64,000 nt of DNA, from IMG/VR virus record IMGVR_UViG_3300047510_002627, positions 1 through 64,000 of that record. One strand, given 5' to 3'. Shown here one piece after another: positions 1,664 through 64,000 of the stretch. The stretch comes from a virus. The stretch's first letter is position 1, and each line of letters opens with the position of its first letter. A program made the position numbers and the translations under genes. The notes beneath the pieces are model-generated. The model made no database searches. It had not been told where the DNA came from and saw only the letters and a list, made by a program, of their open reading frames with translations.

Positions 1664-1681
1664 GGGGGGCATCCGCCCCCC
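1664..1681 (+). terminator. GC-rich hairpin, probable terminator
   Basis: GGGGGGC / GCCCCCC stem of seven pairs with loop ATCC, directly behind the 1225 gene. Only two T follow, so termination may be weak or factor-assisted. Confidence 0.6.
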
Positions 1682-1698
1682 TTCCGCCTGATCTGTGC

Positions 1699-1704
1699 TA
1701 CAGT
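1699..1704 (+). promoter_or_regulatory. -10 box TACAGT (TGC-extended)
   Basis: TGCTACAGT gives an extended -10 element ending 24 nt before the ATG at 1728. No -35 is visible because the terminator hairpin occupies that position. The short leader has no Shine-Dalgarno sequence. Confidence 0.45.
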
Positions 1705-1727
1705 TCCAAAGCAACCGCAACCGACCG

Positions 1728-1868
1728 ATGGACCGCTTCCTCACCACCGCCCAGATCGACGAGCATCCCCTGATCGACATCTCCCCCCGGGTGATGTCCG
1801 ATGAGCAACTGGCAGCACTGCTGGAGGTTACCGTGGATGAACTGCTGGGTCTTGTGCCGACCAACTAG
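1728..1868 (+). CDS. Hypothetical acidic protein, 46 aa
   Basis: 46-residue ORF MDRFLTTAQIDEHPLIDIS..., ending LVPTN. Codons are strongly G/C-ending, like the next genes up to about 4.1 kb and unlike the tail operon. It is preceded by a -10 box at standard distance and followed by a hairpin, so it forms its own cassette. The C-terminal half (EQLAALLEVTVDELLGLV) looks like a short amphipathic helix pair. Function unknown; it is supported mainly by cassette structure. Confidence 0.5.
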   Translation: MDRFLTTAQIDEHPLIDISPRVMSDEQLAALLEVTVDELLGLVPTN

Positions 1869-1876
1869 GTGGCACA

Positions 1877-1902
1877 CGGGGATCGGAAACGGTCCCCGAT
1901 CC
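1877..1902 (+). terminator. GC-rich hairpin, probable terminator
   Basis: Two mutually exclusive stems are possible: CGGGGA (1877-1882) with TCCCCG (1893-1898), or GGATCGG (1880-1886) with CCGATCC (1896-1902). No T-tract follows. It occupies the place between gene and next leader that is a hairpin in every cassette here. Confidence 0.45.
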
Positions 1903-1910
1903 GCCTCTGG

Positions 1911-1950
1911 ATGCTGTAGGATTCTCTCAAGTTCACCACCCGAACCGATC
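1911..1950 (+). promoter_or_regulatory. Cassette leader, type A copy 1
   Basis: Contains GTAGGATTCTCTCAAG and GTTCACCACCCGAACCGAT, shared almost base for base with 2711-2750 and 3425-3463. TAGGAT (1917-1922) is a plausible -10 box 29 nt before the ATG at 1951. No Shine-Dalgarno sequence is seen. Confidence 0.6.
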
Positions 1951-2667
1951 ATGCTCAACCTTTCAATCGGCAACGCCAAACTGGGCAAGCAAACTCTCAT
2001 TTTCAACCTGCCCGCAGGTAAGACTTGCCCAGGTGCCCTATACTGCAAGTCCTTTGCAGTTGTTACACCCGAAGGTCGCAAGATTGCTGATGGTCCGCAG
2101 ACGCAATTCCGTTGCTTTGCTGCCAGCAGTGAGGTGCAGTACGATGCAGTATTCCTCTCCCGTGCTGATAATTTCCAGCAGATCGTGACTGCTTTGCAGG
2201 ATGGATCTGCTGCTGATCTTATCAACGACAGCATCCAACATCACCGCACAAAGAATACCAAACTGGTGCGTATTCATGAGAGCGGAGACTTTTTCTCAGG
2301 TGCCTATCTGGACGCCTGGATTGAAGTCGCCCATCGCAATCCTGATCTCAAGTTTTACTGCTACTCCAAGAGTCTGCAGTTGTTTGTAGACTTCAAGTTG
2401 CCCGCCAACTTCTACATGACCGCATCCTATGGTGGCAAGTGGGATGCACTTATCGACGCTGGTAAGTTTACCCGCTACGCTAAGGTTTTTATGTATGAAG
2501 AGGAAGCAATCGCAGCAGGTTTAGAGGTGGATCACGATGATTCCCACTGTTTCGGGGATCGCCCGTTCGCCCTGCTGGTACACGGGACGCAACCTAAGGG
2601 GAGCGACTGGGGAAAGGCGATCCGCGAGCGTCGCAAGCGTAAGCAGTTCGCTGGGTATGCCAGTTGA
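1951..2667 (+). CDS. GP88-like protein (gene product 88 family), 238 aa
   Basis: The frame opens at 1801, but that overlaps the 1728 gene and the shared leader, so ATG 1951 is the start. The N-terminus NAKLGKQTLIFNLPAGKTCP followed by GALYCKSFA matches what I recall of the GP88 family, first named in mycobacteriophages: an N-terminal sugar/nucleotide-like beta segment with a conserved Cys-Pro and a second Cys. Further visible features are RIHESGDFFS and YSKSL. The C-terminus is basic (IRERRKRKQFAGY). The biochemical role of the family is not established. It stands alone in a leader-gene-hairpin cassette in GC-rich DNA, which suggests acquisition from a source unlike the AT-rich tail operon. 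Confidence 0.65.
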   Translation: MLNLSIGNAKLGKQTLIFNLPAGKTCPGALYCKSFAVVTPEGRKIADGPQTQFRCFAASSEVQYDAVFLSRADNFQQIVTALQDGSAADLINDSIQHHRTKNTKLVRIHESGDFFSGAYLDAWIEVAHRNPDLKFYCYSKSLQLFVDFKLPANFYMTASYGGKWDALIDAGKFTRYAKVFMYEEEAIAAGLEVDHDDSHCFGDRPFALLVHGTQPKGSDWGKAIRERRKRKQFAGYAS

Positions 2668-2681
2668 GCAACCTGCACAAT

Positions 2682-2699
2682 GGGGGCGGGATCGCCCCC
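2682..2699 (+). terminator. GC-rich hairpin, probable terminator
   Basis: GGGGGCG / CGCCCCC stem of seven pairs, loop GGAT, followed by CTATT. Lies behind the GP88-like gene and before the next leader. Confidence 0.6.
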
Positions 2700-2710
2700 C
2701 TATTCCCCTC

Positions 2711-2750
2711 CTGATGCAGTAGGATTCTCTCAAGTTCACCACCCGAACCG
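2711..2750 (+). promoter_or_regulatory. Cassette leader, type A copy 2
   Basis: Nearly identical to 1911-1950 and 3425-3463. TAGGAT (2720-2725) ends 26 nt before the ATG at 2751. Confidence 0.6.
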
Positions 2751-3023
2751 ATGAACACCACCGCCCTCACCGCTGAGACCTGCTTCGACTGCCCCGCCTT
2801 CTGCGCCTGGTGGGATGCTGCCCACCAGTACCAACTGCAGGATTGGGATTCCTATTGCCTGGTGGGCACCCCCGATGAGGGGTGGGCACTGGATGCTCTC
2901 CTGGATCGCTACCAGGAAGGCATGACACCCCAGGCGGCAATCGATGAGATTGTGGACGGTTGGGAACCCTCCGATGATCAAATGCTGAGTGCCTTCGGGA
3001 CCAAGTGGCACGACGGTCTGTAA
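2751..3023 (+). CDS. Hypothetical acidic Trp-rich protein, 90 aa
   Basis: Acidic 90-residue protein with seven Trp and four Cys (CFDCPAFCAWW near the N-terminus, CLVG at about 37). The CxxC spacing could bind a metal or form a disulfide. The sequence has no match I recognise. It has its own leader, start and hairpin, with G/C-ending codons like its neighbours. Function unknown. Confidence 0.55.
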   Translation: MNTTALTAETCFDCPAFCAWWDAAHQYQLQDWDSYCLVGTPDEGWALDALLDRYQEGMTPQAAIDEIVDGWEPSDDQMLSAFGTKWHDGL

Positions 3024-3034
3024 ACAGATGTTAC

Positions 3035-3054
3035 GGGGCACCCACAGGTGCCCC
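3035..3054 (+). terminator. GC-rich hairpin, probable terminator
   Basis: Perfect 8-bp stem GGGGCACC / GGTGCCCC with tetraloop CACA, behind the 2751 gene. No T-tract. Confidence 0.6.
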
Positions 3055-3065
3055 ACCCGATCCGT

Positions 3066-3071
3066 TAAACT
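3066..3071 (+). promoter_or_regulatory. -10 box TAAACT
   Basis: TAAACT ends 26 nt before the ATG at 3097. The stretch after it (GATTCAGTC...CCCGAACCATG) resembles the leader at the right end of the window (63971-63993), and its last bases resemble the type A leaders. Confidence 0.5.
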
Positions 3072-3096
3072 GATTCAGTCAACCGACACCCGAACC

Positions 3097-3378
3097 ATGA
3101 TCGAACTGATCTCTAACGCTTACACCCGCCTGATCCGCGTGGGTGCCCGCAGCATCCTGATCCAGCGTGGTCCCCATACCTGCTCCGATCTCGCCCGTGC
3201 CATGGGGATCGACCCCGCTAAGCACAAGGGAACGCTTCACGCCATCCTGGTGGACCTGGAGCGAGCAGGTGCCCTCGCCGCCACCCGCAGCGATGCCACT
3301 GGCAAGCGGGATCTGTGGTTCCACGTCCCCGTCGCCATCCGCAAGCGGGACCGCCTGGCGGCAGCGATTCTGGGGTAA
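3097..3378 (+). CDS. Winged-helix-like DNA-binding protein, 93 aa
   Basis: ATG 3097 is preferred over the in-frame ATG at 2989, which lies in the previous gene. Residues about 22-60 read like a helix-turn-helix with recognition helix and wing: TCSDLARAMGIDPAKHKGTL followed by a long helix (HAILVDLERAGALAA) and a basic beta wing (TGKRDLWFHV). This pattern is that of small winged-helix repressors or MarR-type fragments. It could regulate the repeated leaders around it; that is inference from position. Moderate confidence in fold, low in role. Confidence 0.6.
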   Translation: MIELISNAYTRLIRVGARSILIQRGPHTCSDLARAMGIDPAKHKGTLHAILVDLERAGALAATRSDATGKRDLWFHVPVAIRKRDRLAAAILG

Positions 3379-3390
3379 ACCTTAAGATCC

Positions 3391-3412
3391 AGGGGATTCT
3401 GCGGAATCCCCT
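3391..3412 (+). terminator. GC-rich hairpin, probable terminator
   Basis: Perfect 9-bp stem AGGGGATTC / GAATCCCCT with loop TGCG, behind the winged-helix-like gene. No T-tract. Confidence 0.6.
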
Positions 3413-3424
3413 CCGATCCGCCCT

Positions 3425-3463
3425 CTGATGCAGTAGGATTCTCTCAGTTCACCACCTGAACCG
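3425..3463 (+). promoter_or_regulatory. Cassette leader, type A copy 3
   Basis: Same leader as at 1911 and 2711 with one A deleted and one C-to-T change. TAGGAT (3434-3439) ends 25 nt before the ATG at 3464. Confidence 0.6.
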
Positions 3464-4054
3464 ATGACCACCGCCACCCGCACCATCACCCTTGAGACCC
3501 GCGAGGGTGTGGAGACTTTCACCACCGATCTCACCCTGGATGCCGCTCTGGACATCCTGCGGGGTCTCCGTGGTAACTTCGCCCAGTCGCTGGCAGCATC
3601 CGCCCGCACCCGTCGCGGTCTGTCCCCGAAGCAGGAGGCATGGGCATTCAAGTTGGCACAGGATGCCATCGCTCCTGCTCCTGCAGAGCGTAAGGTCGCA
3701 GGCGACCTGCAACCTATCCTGGATCTGTTCCAGCGTCAGCGGGAGCGGGGTGCCAAGCGATTCTCCCTGCGTCTGAACGGTGCCACCCTGTCGCCCTCCC
3801 GCGACGGTCGCAACGTGTGGGTTAAGCAGGGCGATGCCTTCCTGGGCGGCATCCGCGAGGGCGGTCGCCCTGATCGCAGCATCCCCAGCGACGTGGTGAG
3901 CATCCTGCAGGGTGCTGCCAGCGATCCCCTGTCTGCTGCCGTCGCCTTCGGGCGTGAGACTGGGGAGTGCTCCTGCTGCGGGCGGGAACTGACCGATCCC
4001 CGCAGCATCGCCCTGGGGATCGGACCCATCTGCAAAGACAAGTGGGGTCTGTGA
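3464..4054 (+). CDS. DUF6011-like zinc protein, 196 aa
   Basis: The C-terminal 30 residues read GECSCCGRELTDPRSIALG then IGPICKDKWGL. This C-x2-CGR-x-L-x-D-P-x-S-x3-GxGP-x-C arrangement is what I know from DUF6011, a small putative zinc-binding module in phage and actinobacterial proteins. Residues 1-35 form a beta hairpin plus helix; the middle is basic and Arg-rich, compatible with nucleic acid or protein binding. It is a single-gene cassette between two hairpins. Codons are strongly GC-ending. Function unknown; the zinc module assignment is moderately sure. Confidence 0.65.
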   Translation: MTTATRTITLETREGVETFTTDLTLDAALDILRGLRGNFAQSLAASARTRRGLSPKQEAWAFKLAQDAIAPAPAERKVAGDLQPILDLFQRQRERGAKRFSLRLNGATLSPSRDGRNVWVKQGDAFLGGIREGGRPDRSIPSDVVSILQGAASDPLSAAVAFGRETGECSCCGRELTDPRSIALGIGPICKDKWGL

Positions 4055-4071
4055 CGGATTGTTAAGATTCA

Positions 4072-4094
4072 GGGGCATCCATCACGGGTGCCCC
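4072..4094 (+). terminator. GC-rich hairpin, probable terminator
   Basis: GGGGCATCC / GGGTGCCCC stem of nine pairs (one G.T) with loop ATCAC, behind the DUF6011-like gene. Confidence 0.6.
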
Positions 4095-4105
4095 ACCCCA
4101 GTCGC

Positions 4106-4111
4106 TACCAT
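4106..4111 (+). promoter_or_regulatory. -10 box TACCAT
   Basis: TACCAT ends 25 nt before the ATG at 4136, matching the spacing in the other cassettes. No -35 seen. Confidence 0.4.
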
Positions 4112-4135
4112 TAGCAAGCATCACGCAATCGCATC

Positions 4136-4456
4136 ATGACCGCCACCGCCACCGCCCACGCTTACAACATCGCCGCCAACGGTGCGATCTATCGGACCTT
4201 CGACATTAGCGAGTCGTCCGCTATTCATAATCTGCACGTTGAGCGTGGCAACATTATCACTGGAATGCCTGGATTCGTAGAGGTTATCTATCAGTCCAAC
4301 ACAGAGAAAGCATACGGTTTCGCTGCAGATCCTGAGTTTGTGATGGATCTGATTGAGATCATCTCTTGGACTGATTGTAAGGGTATCTCTCTCGGTCGTT
4401 TGATTCATCAGGCAAAGCAGAATGGCAACCTTGAATCTATCGAAGTTGCAGACTGA
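4136..4456 (+). CDS. Hypothetical protein, possibly KTSC-like, 106 aa
   Basis: 106-residue protein. Residues about 45-75 (FVEVIYQSNTEKAYGFA then DPEFVMDLIEI) resemble the beta-strand, aromatic and helix order of KTSC domains, but the match is weak. The first 15 codons are GC-rich and Ala/Thr-rich like the cassettes upstream. From about 4200 on the base composition drops towards that of typical genes in the window, so the gene may be a junction between two DNA sources. It is the last cassette of the GC-rich array. Confidence 0.55.
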   Translation: MTATATAHAYNIAANGAIYRTFDISESSAIHNLHVERGNIITGMPGFVEVIYQSNTEKAYGFAADPEFVMDLIEIISWTDCKGISLGRLIHQAKQNGNLESIEVAD

Positions 4457-4469
4457 GTAAGGTACACTT

Positions 4470-4490
4470 AGGGGGCACACATTGCCCCCT
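4470..4490 (+). terminator. GC-rich hairpin, probable terminator
   Basis: AGGGGGCA / TGCCCCCT stem of eight pairs, loop CACAT, followed by TCATT. Lies behind the 4136 gene and opens a 263-nt gene-free stretch (4457-4719). Confidence 0.65.
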
Positions 4491-20819: not shown

Positions 20820-23800
20820 ATGACAATTATCAATGCCGGAACTGGTTTTTATATAGGAAGATTATTTGATGTTCAACTTAGTGCCGAACTGAGGCATAAA
20901 GGTGATCCCATATTTGAAAAACTTTTTGATGGATCTAGCCAGGTTAGTGTTGATTTAAGAAATAATAGATTTTTTGTCCCAAATCATTTTTTTAAAACTG
21001 GGGAAAAACTAGAATATTTTTTCCCCAATTATGAAAATGCGACCGAAGGAGAATCAAACGCTGTTGGAATTGCTACAACTAGTATAGTAAATGTTGGAAT
21101 TACTACCAGACTTCCAAGAAACGTATATGCAGTTGTATTAAACGATCAGTATATACAAGTATCAGAAACCAAGTCAGATGCTTTAAGAAGAATTCCAAAA
21201 GTTCTTGATATTGTTTCAGTTGGAATTGGAGCATCTCATAAATTTGTTGGGGAAAAACAAAACACAAGATCATTAATAACAATTGATAATGTAATACAAA
21301 CCCCATCAATAGATACCGAAATAAGAACAACTTTAAGGGAAGAATTATCTGGGGCCAGCGATTTTGTAGAGGTTGTAGGTATTACTTCATTTTTTACTGG
21401 AGATTTGATTAGAATTGATAATGAAATAATGAGAATAGAACTCATTGGTTCTGGCATAGGAAATACCAATAGTTTCATTGTAAGAAGACCAATTTTAGGA
21501 ACTGGATTGGCAAATCATGCTCAAGGAGCAGATGTAGTAAAGCAATCCGGAGCGTATCAAATTGTAGATAATATAATTTATTTTCCAGTACCTCCATTTG
21601 ATAAAGCACCAACGACTGATCTCACTAGAACTGATCCAGAAGAAAGAGATTATGTTGGACTTGAAACATTCTCAACTTTTAATGGAAGAGTATTTTTAAG
21701 ATCTGGATTTGAAGATACAAATATAGGTCCATATGATAAAAATTTCTTATTAGATGATATTTCAAATCAATTTTTAGGAATATCAACTCAAGCAGTATTA
21801 AAAAATCAAGGAAATAATGTAACTGGATTTTCAACTGGAAACGCTCTTATTTTAATCAATAACGTATTCCAAACTCCAGATTTTATTGATTATGGACTTG
21901 GTGAAAGTGCCGGAGTTACTACAATTAGATTTACGGGAGAAAAAAGTCCCAACCCAGAGGATGTTAATACAGCTTCCATACCTAGAGGTGGTATAATAGT
22001 TTCAGTTGGATCAAATGAAGGATATGGATATCAACCATTAGTTGCCGCCGGTGGAACAGCAACTGTATCAGCTGCTGGAACAATATCAAATATATCAATA
22101 GGATACAGTGGATCTGGATATAGATCTCCTAAGGAATTAATATTAACAACAAGAATAAATTACCCAACAAACAATCCATCTGCAGTATTTTTCCTGGAAG
22201 ATAATGATGGATTATTTGAAAAACTTAGATATTTTAAATCACCAGGATCTAATGCAAAAGTAGTTTTATCTGTAGAAAACAGTGTTGGTATAAACCAAGA
22301 AACTTTAGGTGAATATACAGAAATAACTTCTGTAGGAAGTACTTCTGTTACTATTAATAATGGATCTGGTCTTGATGCATGGGAAGAAGTTAGTGAATTT
22401 AGTAGTTATGAATTTTTTGCTGATACTACAGCGACTCAACCATCCGGAATTTCTACTAATGTAATTACTGTTTTTGATACTCTTGGAATTAGTACAGCTC
22501 CAGGAAATCCAAATTATTATTTAACTATAACAAATGCAGCAAAAAATATACTAATTACAAAAGTAAATGAAATTAATAATCAATTTACTTTAAATGAATT
22601 GACAACGAACTCTTTTGTAGATAATTCTGTGGTCACTGTCAATACATTCAGGCAAGGAATAACTTCTACATCAATTGGAAATAATGTTGTAATAAAGATT
22701 ACAGATCCGAATGTTGGATTTGCTAACATCTATGTCGATACTTTAAAAGCATATACTGCAACTATTGCAGATTATGATCCAAAAACCGGACTAACAACTA
22801 TAACAGCACCTGGATTAAATGTTTTACAGGGTGATTTTCTTGATCTAAGAAACTTTAAATATGTGTGCGAGAGTGGTGGTTCTGTTAGTGGGGAAGGTGA
22901 ATCAACAAATAGAAGATTTTCTATTAATCGTATTATTATAGATCAATCCATCAATAAAGAGTATAGTGTTATTGATGCAACATATAATCCAGTAAGTGGA
23001 ATATCAACTTTAAATATTGGTATTCATACATTTGGAACTATCGGATCAAATCGTTTTTACATAGAACCAGAATCACTTGGATTTAGTTGCAGTTTGGATG
23101 GAAATGCAACAACTTCATACTATCCTGGCCCAAATGATTTAAACTATAAAAAAAATTATGAAATTATAGACACAACAGCAACAACTGTAACTGTAAATGT
23201 TGGTAACGCAGGCAATAACACATCTGCACATACATTTGAAAGAGTTAATAATTCATCTTTGGGATCTTTATCTCAAGTAACTAATGCAACTTATAACGCA
23301 TCTACTGGAATATCTACTATATCATTTACTAATCCTCATGGGTTAAGTGCAGGAATTGCATATTCAGTAACTAATGCTACTTACAACCCAACTACTGGAG
23401 TTGCAGTAATTTCTGTTCCAGATACAACTGGATTACAAAATGGAAGTAAAATTCTAATACAATCAGAATCTCTTGGATTTACTTGTACTTTGGATGGCAA
23501 TACAAGTGTCACATATTATCCAAGATTAACAGATCCTGCAAATGACAATTTACTCACAGTGTCAAATGTAACTGGAAATTCATTCCAAGTTAATGTTGGA
23601 ACCTCAGTCGATACTTCAGCACATACTTTTGTTGGCGTAAATACTGAAACTCCCAAACCAATTAAATTTGTAAGCGGAGATTATGTATTTTTGGAAGAAG
23701 AAGGATTGACATTTACATGTACTTTAGATGGAAATACAACACCATCTTCATATCCAAGATCAACAGATTACGCATACAATAAACTTATAGAAGTTTTAGA

Positions 23801-63821: not shown

Positions 63822-64000
63822 ATGAAAGTCCCTAATTGGCAACATCATTCCAAGAAGGATCAAAAACGGAAACTGAAACCTCAGGCACTCCGACAAGCAA
63901 AAGCACGACTGAGACACTTTAAAAAGTGTCACATGACCTCCCCGAAACGGGAGGTTTTTTCGTGTATACTGATTTCAGTCGAACGAACCCACCATGTCTG
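63822..64000 (+). CDS. Possible small basic protein, open at window edge
   Basis: Begins ATG at 63822, one base behind the dehydrogenase stop, and stays open to the window end. The first 36 residues are extremely basic (HHSKKDQKRKLKPQALRQAK, then ARLRHFKKCH). However, a perfect hairpin (63913-63930) and an intrinsic terminator (63936-63960) lie inside the frame, and the start of another gene overlaps it. Either the true gene is short with an end I cannot see, or the frame is chance. Low confidence. Confidence 0.3.
   Translation, partial: MKVPNWQHHSKKDQKRKLKPQALRQAKARLRHFKKCHMTSPKREVFSCILISVERTHHV
63936..63960 (+). terminator. Intrinsic terminator
   Basis: ACCTCCC / GGGAGGT stem with loop CGAAAC and six T (63955-63960). 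It would end the recombination operon. A second hairpin GACACTT / AAGTGTC stands just upstream at 63913-63930. Confidence 0.85.
63965..63970 (+). promoter_or_regulatory. -10 box TATACT of right-edge gene
   Basis: TATACT ends 24 nt before the ATG at 63994; followed by GATTTCAGTCGAAC, similar to the leader at 3072-3085. No -35 is seen. Confidence 0.6.
63994..64000 (+). CDS. Start of a further gene, cut by the window
   Basis: ATG at 63994, of which only two codons (M, S) and one base are in the window. It is supported by the terminator, the -10 box and the standard 24-nt spacing just upstream. The cassette style of the left part of the window returns here. Confidence 0.45.

Follow-up and report, generated by a model that had tools for sequence, protein, structure and literature searches.

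The DNA considered here, referred to as the window, comprises the initial 64 kb of the 120,751-base viral record IMGVR_UViG_3300047510_002627, which belongs to a T4-like cyanophage. At positions 1664-4490 it contains an array of six open reading frames (ORFs), all in the same direction and flanked by seven GC-rich hairpins, which is located 3-6 kb upstream of the baseplate genes gp25 (7591; assigned by its position before gp6 and by matches in relatives) and gp6 (7993; phrog_219, E 2.5e-189). GC content reaches its genome-wide maximum at the array (59% vs. 35% for the genome), and related units continue upstream of it, featuring a gene at 143 and inverted repeats (dyads) at 52, 659, and 1118. 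Synechococcus phage S-SRM01 is the nearest isolate across the array region, and the shared genes of the window are found again in many further cyanomyoviruses. An explanation of the array by a tRNA gene or attachment site was rejected, as tRNA genes are absent from the 64-kb window.

A first-pass annotation of the window had described six single-gene units, each set between a -10 box and a GC-rich hairpin of 7-9 bp, and this anatomy was confirmed on the plus strand for the ORFs starting at 1728, 1951, 2751, 3097, 3464, and 4136. The seven stems comprise 7-9 bp with minimum free energies of -15.3 to -18.9 kcal/mol and z-scores of -2.7 to -4.8 relative to dinucleotide shuffles. The first unit consists of a 7-bp hairpin (1664-1681; -17.2 kcal/mol, z -2.97), the -10-like box TACAGT (1699-1704), and a gene for 46 amino acids (aa) without assigned function (1728-1868), the ortholog of which lies at 3338 in L089, a contig of the closest relative; compared with the L089 leader (3300-3340), the one in the window is degenerate. 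A 9-bp hairpin (1877-1898; -18.0 kcal/mol, z -3.46) opens the second unit and is followed by shared leader copy 1 (1917-1950), with the -10 box TAGGAT, a predicted start site at ~1929 and the 5' untranslated region (5'UTR) AAGTTCACCACCCGAACCGATC, and by a gene of the GP88 family (1951-2667; PF17338, Pfam E 1.5e-43). In the third unit, a 7-bp hairpin recognized by RNA folding (2682-2699) precedes leader copy 2 (2720-2750; delimited by comparison with copies 1 and 3) and an ORF for 90 aa without assigned function (2751-3023), which clusters into a family present in 9 contigs (family G). The fourth unit combines an 8-bp hairpin (3035-3054; -17.8 kcal/mol, z -3.26) with the leader TAAACTGATTCAGTCAACCGACACCCGAACC (3066-3096), which was detected by the leader pattern scan and belongs to the AGTCAA class, and a gene for a 93-aa winged-helix protein with a predicted MarR-like fold (3097-3378; family B, 22 contigs). 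Likewise, a 9-bp hairpin (3391-3412; -16.1 kcal/mol, z -3.75) and leader copy 3 (3434-3463), differing by one deletion and one substitution according to sequence comparison, stand before a gene with a C-terminal DUF6011 domain (3464-4054; PF19474, Pfam E 2.9e-16). The last unit features a 9-bp hairpin (4072-4094; -18.9 kcal/mol, z -4.78), the -10-like box TACCAT (4106-4111) with a degenerate leader where the L089 ortholog carries TACAATGATCGAGTCAAC, and a gene for 106 aa (4136-4456; phrog_4357, E 2e-8), before an 8-bp hairpin ends the array (4470-4490; -15.3 kcal/mol, z -4.08). Pfam and PHROG searches revealed the six genes to be mutually unrelated, and PADLOC and NCBIfam assigned no defence or named families to the cargo proteins.

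Upstream of every ORF lie a TAnnnT box and a leader of ~25 nucleotides (nt) that is devoid of a Shine-Dalgarno sequence. The statement of the first-pass annotation that three nearly identical leaders precede unrelated genes also held: copies 1 and 2 have 34 exact bases in common and copies 2 and 3 have 22, with ~9 shared bases as the baseline in random window sets of the same genome. The 31-mer GATGCAGTAGGATTCTCTCAAGTTCACCACC matched twice in the window at up to 3 mismatches and not once in 100 shuffles, and GTAGGATTCTCTCA matched exactly three times, always at array leaders and nowhere else in the complete record. Two leader classes, AGTTCA and AGTCAA, stand side by side in the window. Alignment on the -10 box across the leader matches defines this box and AGTYMA as the constant core; the 5'UTR is C/A-rich and lacks AGGAG. 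A -35 hexamer is absent from these aligned promoters, and the usual -35 region is occupied by a G-run at -29 to -25 and a C-run at -15 to -12, which constitute the hairpin. An RNA-hairpin reading of the GTTC..GAAC repeat in the leader was rejected due to weak folding (z -0.6 to -2.1) and the lack of this repeat in many relatives, and a search of Rfam returned no match.

Comparison with relatives revealed that the leader is not confined to this genome and that the genes behind it vary in identity and order. An exact scan of IMG/VR with a 25-mer of the leader gave no match, and a gapped, slightly relaxed pattern recovered four contigs in which the leader precedes three or four different genes. 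Searches with GP88, DUF6011, and the winged-helix protein yielded 91 loci, few of them from the latter two because such searches reach close relatives only; upstream of GP88 in these relatives, the architecture is retained while the sequence of the leader drifts. Among 74 non-redundant cyanophage loci (1.08 Mb), many of which are metagenomic fragments and not fully independent, the pattern TAnnnT, N4-7, and AGTYMA, followed within 34 nt by an ATG that opens an ORF of 30 aa or more, was found 279 times compared with 32 in reversed sequence, so that about 32 of the matches are to be expected by chance. Single linkage grouped the genes behind them into 109 families, chance matches included, with 32 families occurring in at least two contigs and many of these behind both leader classes. 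A hairpin of at least 7 bp within 50 nt upstream accompanied 87 of the 202 matches of multi-contig families and none of 202 shuffled ones. The majority of contigs with both elements have the leaders upstream of gp25 at a distance of a few kb, in a region of variable gene content.

The leader is present in isolates as well. S-SRM01 features it at 86731, 87275, 89350, and 90334 and additionally at 149914 before an ATPase gene, as is the case outside the array in the present genome, where it precedes an ATPase-like gene at 66276. In S-PM2, 10-11 leader cassettes form a GC-rich stretch at 21.5-24.8 kb directly upstream of gp25, and pairs of leaders before different genes (21570/23012, 23503/23789, and 24347/24617) are identical over 39-44 nt, spacers included. 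The S-PM2 leader gave single or multiple blastn matches, some of them weak, in other marine isolates, among them S-RSM4, S-RIM32, S-WAM2, S-T4, and S-SM2. The sequence CCTATACTGATCTCAGTTC, listed for S-PM2d250 as a putative Pho box (PMC10976474, Table 2), corresponds to the -10/leader motif of the cassettes and has one match in the S-PM2 genome, at 22067 inside a cassette leader. In the S-PM2 record (NC_006820, L112; 21400-25100), the cassette ORFs at 21570, 21830, 22097, 23012, 23263, 23503, and 23789 have no plus-strand coding sequence, and p067 and p070, which the record places on the minus strand across two of these ORFs, are probably misannotated. The neighbors 21570 and 21830 share sequence only in part (EGAEMLRLIVRD in mid-gene), which suggests recombination within genes, too. 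A further run of single genes in S-SRM01 (91.8-93.1 kb; L001:10530-11800) features GGGGAG..CTCCCC hairpins preceded by TTACACTTAAG and no AGTYMA leader.

Gene order around the leaders changes between genomes: the winged-helix gene comes next after GP88 in 10 contigs and other genes do so in 14, whereas L034 and L081 have the two in reverse order. L089/L090, the closest relative, has flanks that are 84% identical to the window. In place of the gene at 2751 it carries an unrelated gene (L089 4374) right behind a hairpin at ~4294 that is near-identical to the one at 2682-2699, an extra cassette is inserted at L089:3018, and three leaders belong to a homogenized type of its own; a swap and an insertion bounded by the motif were seen in one closely related pair only. 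Leaders of different gene families are more alike when they come from one genome (identity 0.682 on average, with 15.6% reaching at least 80%) than when they come from different genomes (0.643, 4.0%). Label permutation gave a null mean of 0.643 (standard deviation 0.005) with a maximum of 0.660 in 1000 permutations, and a test per genome found excess leader similarity in 29 of 37 genomes (Wilcoxon p 1.3e-5). Coding sequences exhibited no such effect (0.567 vs. 0.568), and the hairpin region was likewise more similar within genomes (6.5% vs. 1.3% at 80% identity or above). Where the leader had been replaced before coding sequences of at least 85% identity, 23 of 28 new leaders were nearer to another cassette in their own genome, compared with a mean of 17 (range 12-22) in 20 draws from other genomes. 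On a GP88 tree of 36 tips, 8 changes of leader class are needed. Likeness within genomes together with difference between them is what would be expected of genes that are swapped through their leaders.

We assign a probability of about two in three to the reading that the array is a cyanophage variant of the early-gene shuffling platforms built from promoter early stem-loops (PeSLs), i.e., a PeSL-like platform. Such a hyperplastic array would hold small accessory genes as independent units, each consisting of a hairpin, a -10 box, a short unstructured leader and a gene up to the next hairpin. Early in infection, the sigma-70 RNA polymerase of the host probably transcribes the units singly, and the hairpins would insulate adjoining units from each other. 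As the blocks of hairpin, -10 box, and leader are repeated many times within and across genomes, they could serve as patches of homology. A block recombining with a block before another gene, provided by a co-infecting phage or the same genome, would swap, add, or delete one gene and leave promoter and hairpin working, and repeated exchange would homogenize the leaders inside each genome. The first-pass annotation had interpreted the leaders as a platform for swapping cargo genes or as a regulon, with the winged-helix gene as a candidate regulator; the unrelated families, the varying order, the homogenization within genomes, and the swap at a shared hairpin in the closest relative speak for the platform, and the proposed regulator was not supported.

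PeSLs, reportedly described by Arbiol et al. in 2010 and Comeau et al. in 2014, include by definition a sigma-70 promoter that acts early and has both a -35 and a -10 element. Since the -35 element is lacking at the leader promoters, and terminator function and early expression are predicted, the array is classified as a PeSL-like variant and not as a proven member. According to two citing papers, PeSLs of T4-type phages are composites of promoter and stem-loop between unrelated small genes of hyperplastic regions, for which shuffling by recombination was proposed (PMC4503421, PMC3950731). The array resembles them in the combination of promoter and stem-loop as one intergenic unit, in near-identical copies ahead of unrelated genes, in its location in a hyperplastic region of variable content upstream of gp25 in a T4-like phage, and in the motif-bounded indels and swaps between close relatives, known here from the one pair. 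It differs by its occurrence in a cyanophage, the hairpin occupying the -35 region, the near-identical block of 25-35 nt that links -10 box and start codon and lacks a Shine-Dalgarno sequence, the genome-specific leader type, and an upstream dyad. Morons of lambdoid phages, single genes with their own promoter and hairpin and a base composition unlike that of the genome, may be comparable with regard to the high GC content and the predicted promoter and terminator, whereas the array consists of many tandem units under one common leader. Repeated intergenic promoter motifs are also found in haloviruses: the available parts of two accounts mention PeSL-like motifs in HGTV-1, where most ORFs in one arm are preceded by an inverted repeat, and the intergenic repeats of HF2 were demonstrated to be promoters (PMC3950731, PMC8707807). 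These archaeal viruses, compared here by description and not by sequence, differ in their TATA-type promoters, and genome-specific homogenization is not described in those parts. The start-associated sequences (SAS/ESAS) of Cluster K mycobacteriophages, a 13-bp motif GGGATAGGAGCCC that has a Shine-Dalgarno core, lies 3-7 nt from the start codon and has a proposed role in translation (PMC3203893), are likewise repeated right upstream of unrelated genes, some after inverted repeats. The leader of the array, in contrast, spans from the -10 box to the start codon, is C/A-rich without AGGAG and falls outside the SAS definition.

Several observations weigh against a shuffling platform. Recombination is inferred from comparison, with no event seen directly, and the leader promoters are predicted from sequence. 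The hairpins have no U-tract and a terminator scan detected none on the plus strand, so that they are not textbook terminators. Gene-order runs such as C-D-A-B recur, meaning that the order is not random, and leader class is partly clustered on the GP88 tree, with the 8 changes compared to 12.2 after shuffling. Eight of the 37 genomes, including this one, featured no excess leader similarity, probably because the pattern list contains chance matches. Moreover, homogenization may partly mirror a genome-specific regulator. If the array were only a regulon, the leader would be a functional cis-element (acting as promoter, as initially transcribed sequence, or as a 5'UTR that enhances translation) kept alike within each genome by co-evolution with such a regulator, and recombination would play no special role. 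The motif is kept across divergent phages with its constant core, it occurs outside the array before the ATPase-like genes, and a dyad is linked to the promoters, all of which is in line with a regulon. However, likeness within genomes reaches the hairpin and flanks, which would be expected to vary freely, and a co-evolving regulator alone is therefore not a ready explanation. In addition, the identity of the S-PM2 leader pairs includes the spacers, two leader classes coexist in one genome such as the window, and replaced leaders resemble cassettes of the same genome beyond the range of the draws from other genomes. We consider a regulon without shuffling unlikely as the sole explanation, and a single regulon may hold alongside the platform.

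Two further explanations were weighed against the shuffling platform. The leaders might represent a standard host promoter and 5'UTR captured together with genes of a GC-rich Synechococcus or Cyanobium host, to which the GC peak at the array in this phage, S-PM2, and S-SRM01 would correspond. When 84,980 prokaryotic species genomes were scanned with AGNATTCTCTCAGTTCACNNC, a search that did not cover the AGTCAA class, three matches emerged, none of them cyanobacterial, so that the suggestion of the first-pass annotation to look for the leader in host genomes led to no cyanobacterial source; the cargo proteins match phage families of unknown function or nothing. A host origin hence appears very improbable. 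Even less credence is given to the winged-helix protein encoded at 3097 as the regulator that binds the leader. Its predicted structure (AlphaFold pLDDT, the predicted local distance difference test, 81.6) has its best PDB matches in the MarR family and Zalpha (E ~2e-3), and the gene resides within the array in 22 contigs. The family profile, however, has no match in the complete genomes of S-PM2, with 10-11 leader cassettes, or S-CRM01, both of which have dyads, and the gene occupies no special position in the arrays and has a leader of the same kind as the cargo genes. Its absence from these two phages identifies the gene as cargo and not as a required regulator.

A better regulatory candidate than the winged-helix protein is the dyad TGTGnCA-N10-TGnCACA, a second element of 24 bp ~30 nt before the -10 box. 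It was found at 230 sites with up to 1 mismatch and at none in reversed sequence, and occurs genome-wide also in S-SRM01, S-PM2, and S-CRM01. In a set of 248 sites that includes added S-PM2 and S-CRM01 sites, 179 have a TAnnnT box 29-31 nt away on one side or both (background 5.9% per side). A -35 hexamer is present at some dyad promoters only. On the plus strand of the window, dyads are located at 52-75 (TATCTT 30 nt downstream, AGTCAA leader, and gene 143-271), at 659-682 (a perfect TGTGACA-N10-TGTCACA inside the end of gene 459-692, with TAGAAT 29 nt downstream and a gene at 742), at 1118-1141 (1 mismatch; upstream of gene 1225-1656), and, outside the array, at 63910-63933 (1 mismatch; TATACT 31 nt downstream and an AGTC-type leader). 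Within the array, TGTGCCG-N10-TGGCACA (1853-1876; 1 mismatch) overlaps the end of cassette gene 1 before gene 1951, and the -10 box begins 40 nt downstream, a spacing about one helical turn longer than elsewhere. The reading of the dyad as an RNA stem was rejected, since mirror positions do not covary, which makes a DNA site more likely; it looks like a candidate operator of a putative regulator. S-CRM01 is without the AGTYMA leader and carries its own repeated leader GTTATGCTAGCTAAGTGGTC behind the dyad. Dyad promoters with the repeated initial sequence TTATGCTAGCTAAGTGGTC lie near tRNA genes of this phage (L114; 127441, 128835, 130593, 134497, 140603, and 149101), which suggests that promoters of this class also serve tRNA clusters and there carry a homogenized leader of a further type. 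Tentatively, and with somewhat less than even confidence, we propose for the Kyanoviridae an early-promoter class not previously described in the openly licensed literature, in which the dyad TGTG(a/c)CA-N10-TG(g/t)CACA ends 29-31 nt upstream of the -10 box (center near -54) and would be bound by a host or phage regulator, and in which the blocks homogenized per genome would act as a recombination "barcode" of the lineage that limits gene-trading partners.

Many small genes without a known origin populate the genomes of cyanophages, and the route by which these enter and leave is an open question. The cassettes offer a concrete and testable route of gene exchange in the long-studied marine isolate S-PM2. 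One study had looked for PeSLs in the S-PM2 ORFanage (5-17 kb), a region outside of which the S-PM2 array is situated, and judged shuffling by them to be unlikely there (PMC4503421). As the leader marks start codons, it further predicts S-PM2 genes that were missed or set on the wrong strand, and the dyad may provide a handle on an early regulator of these phages.

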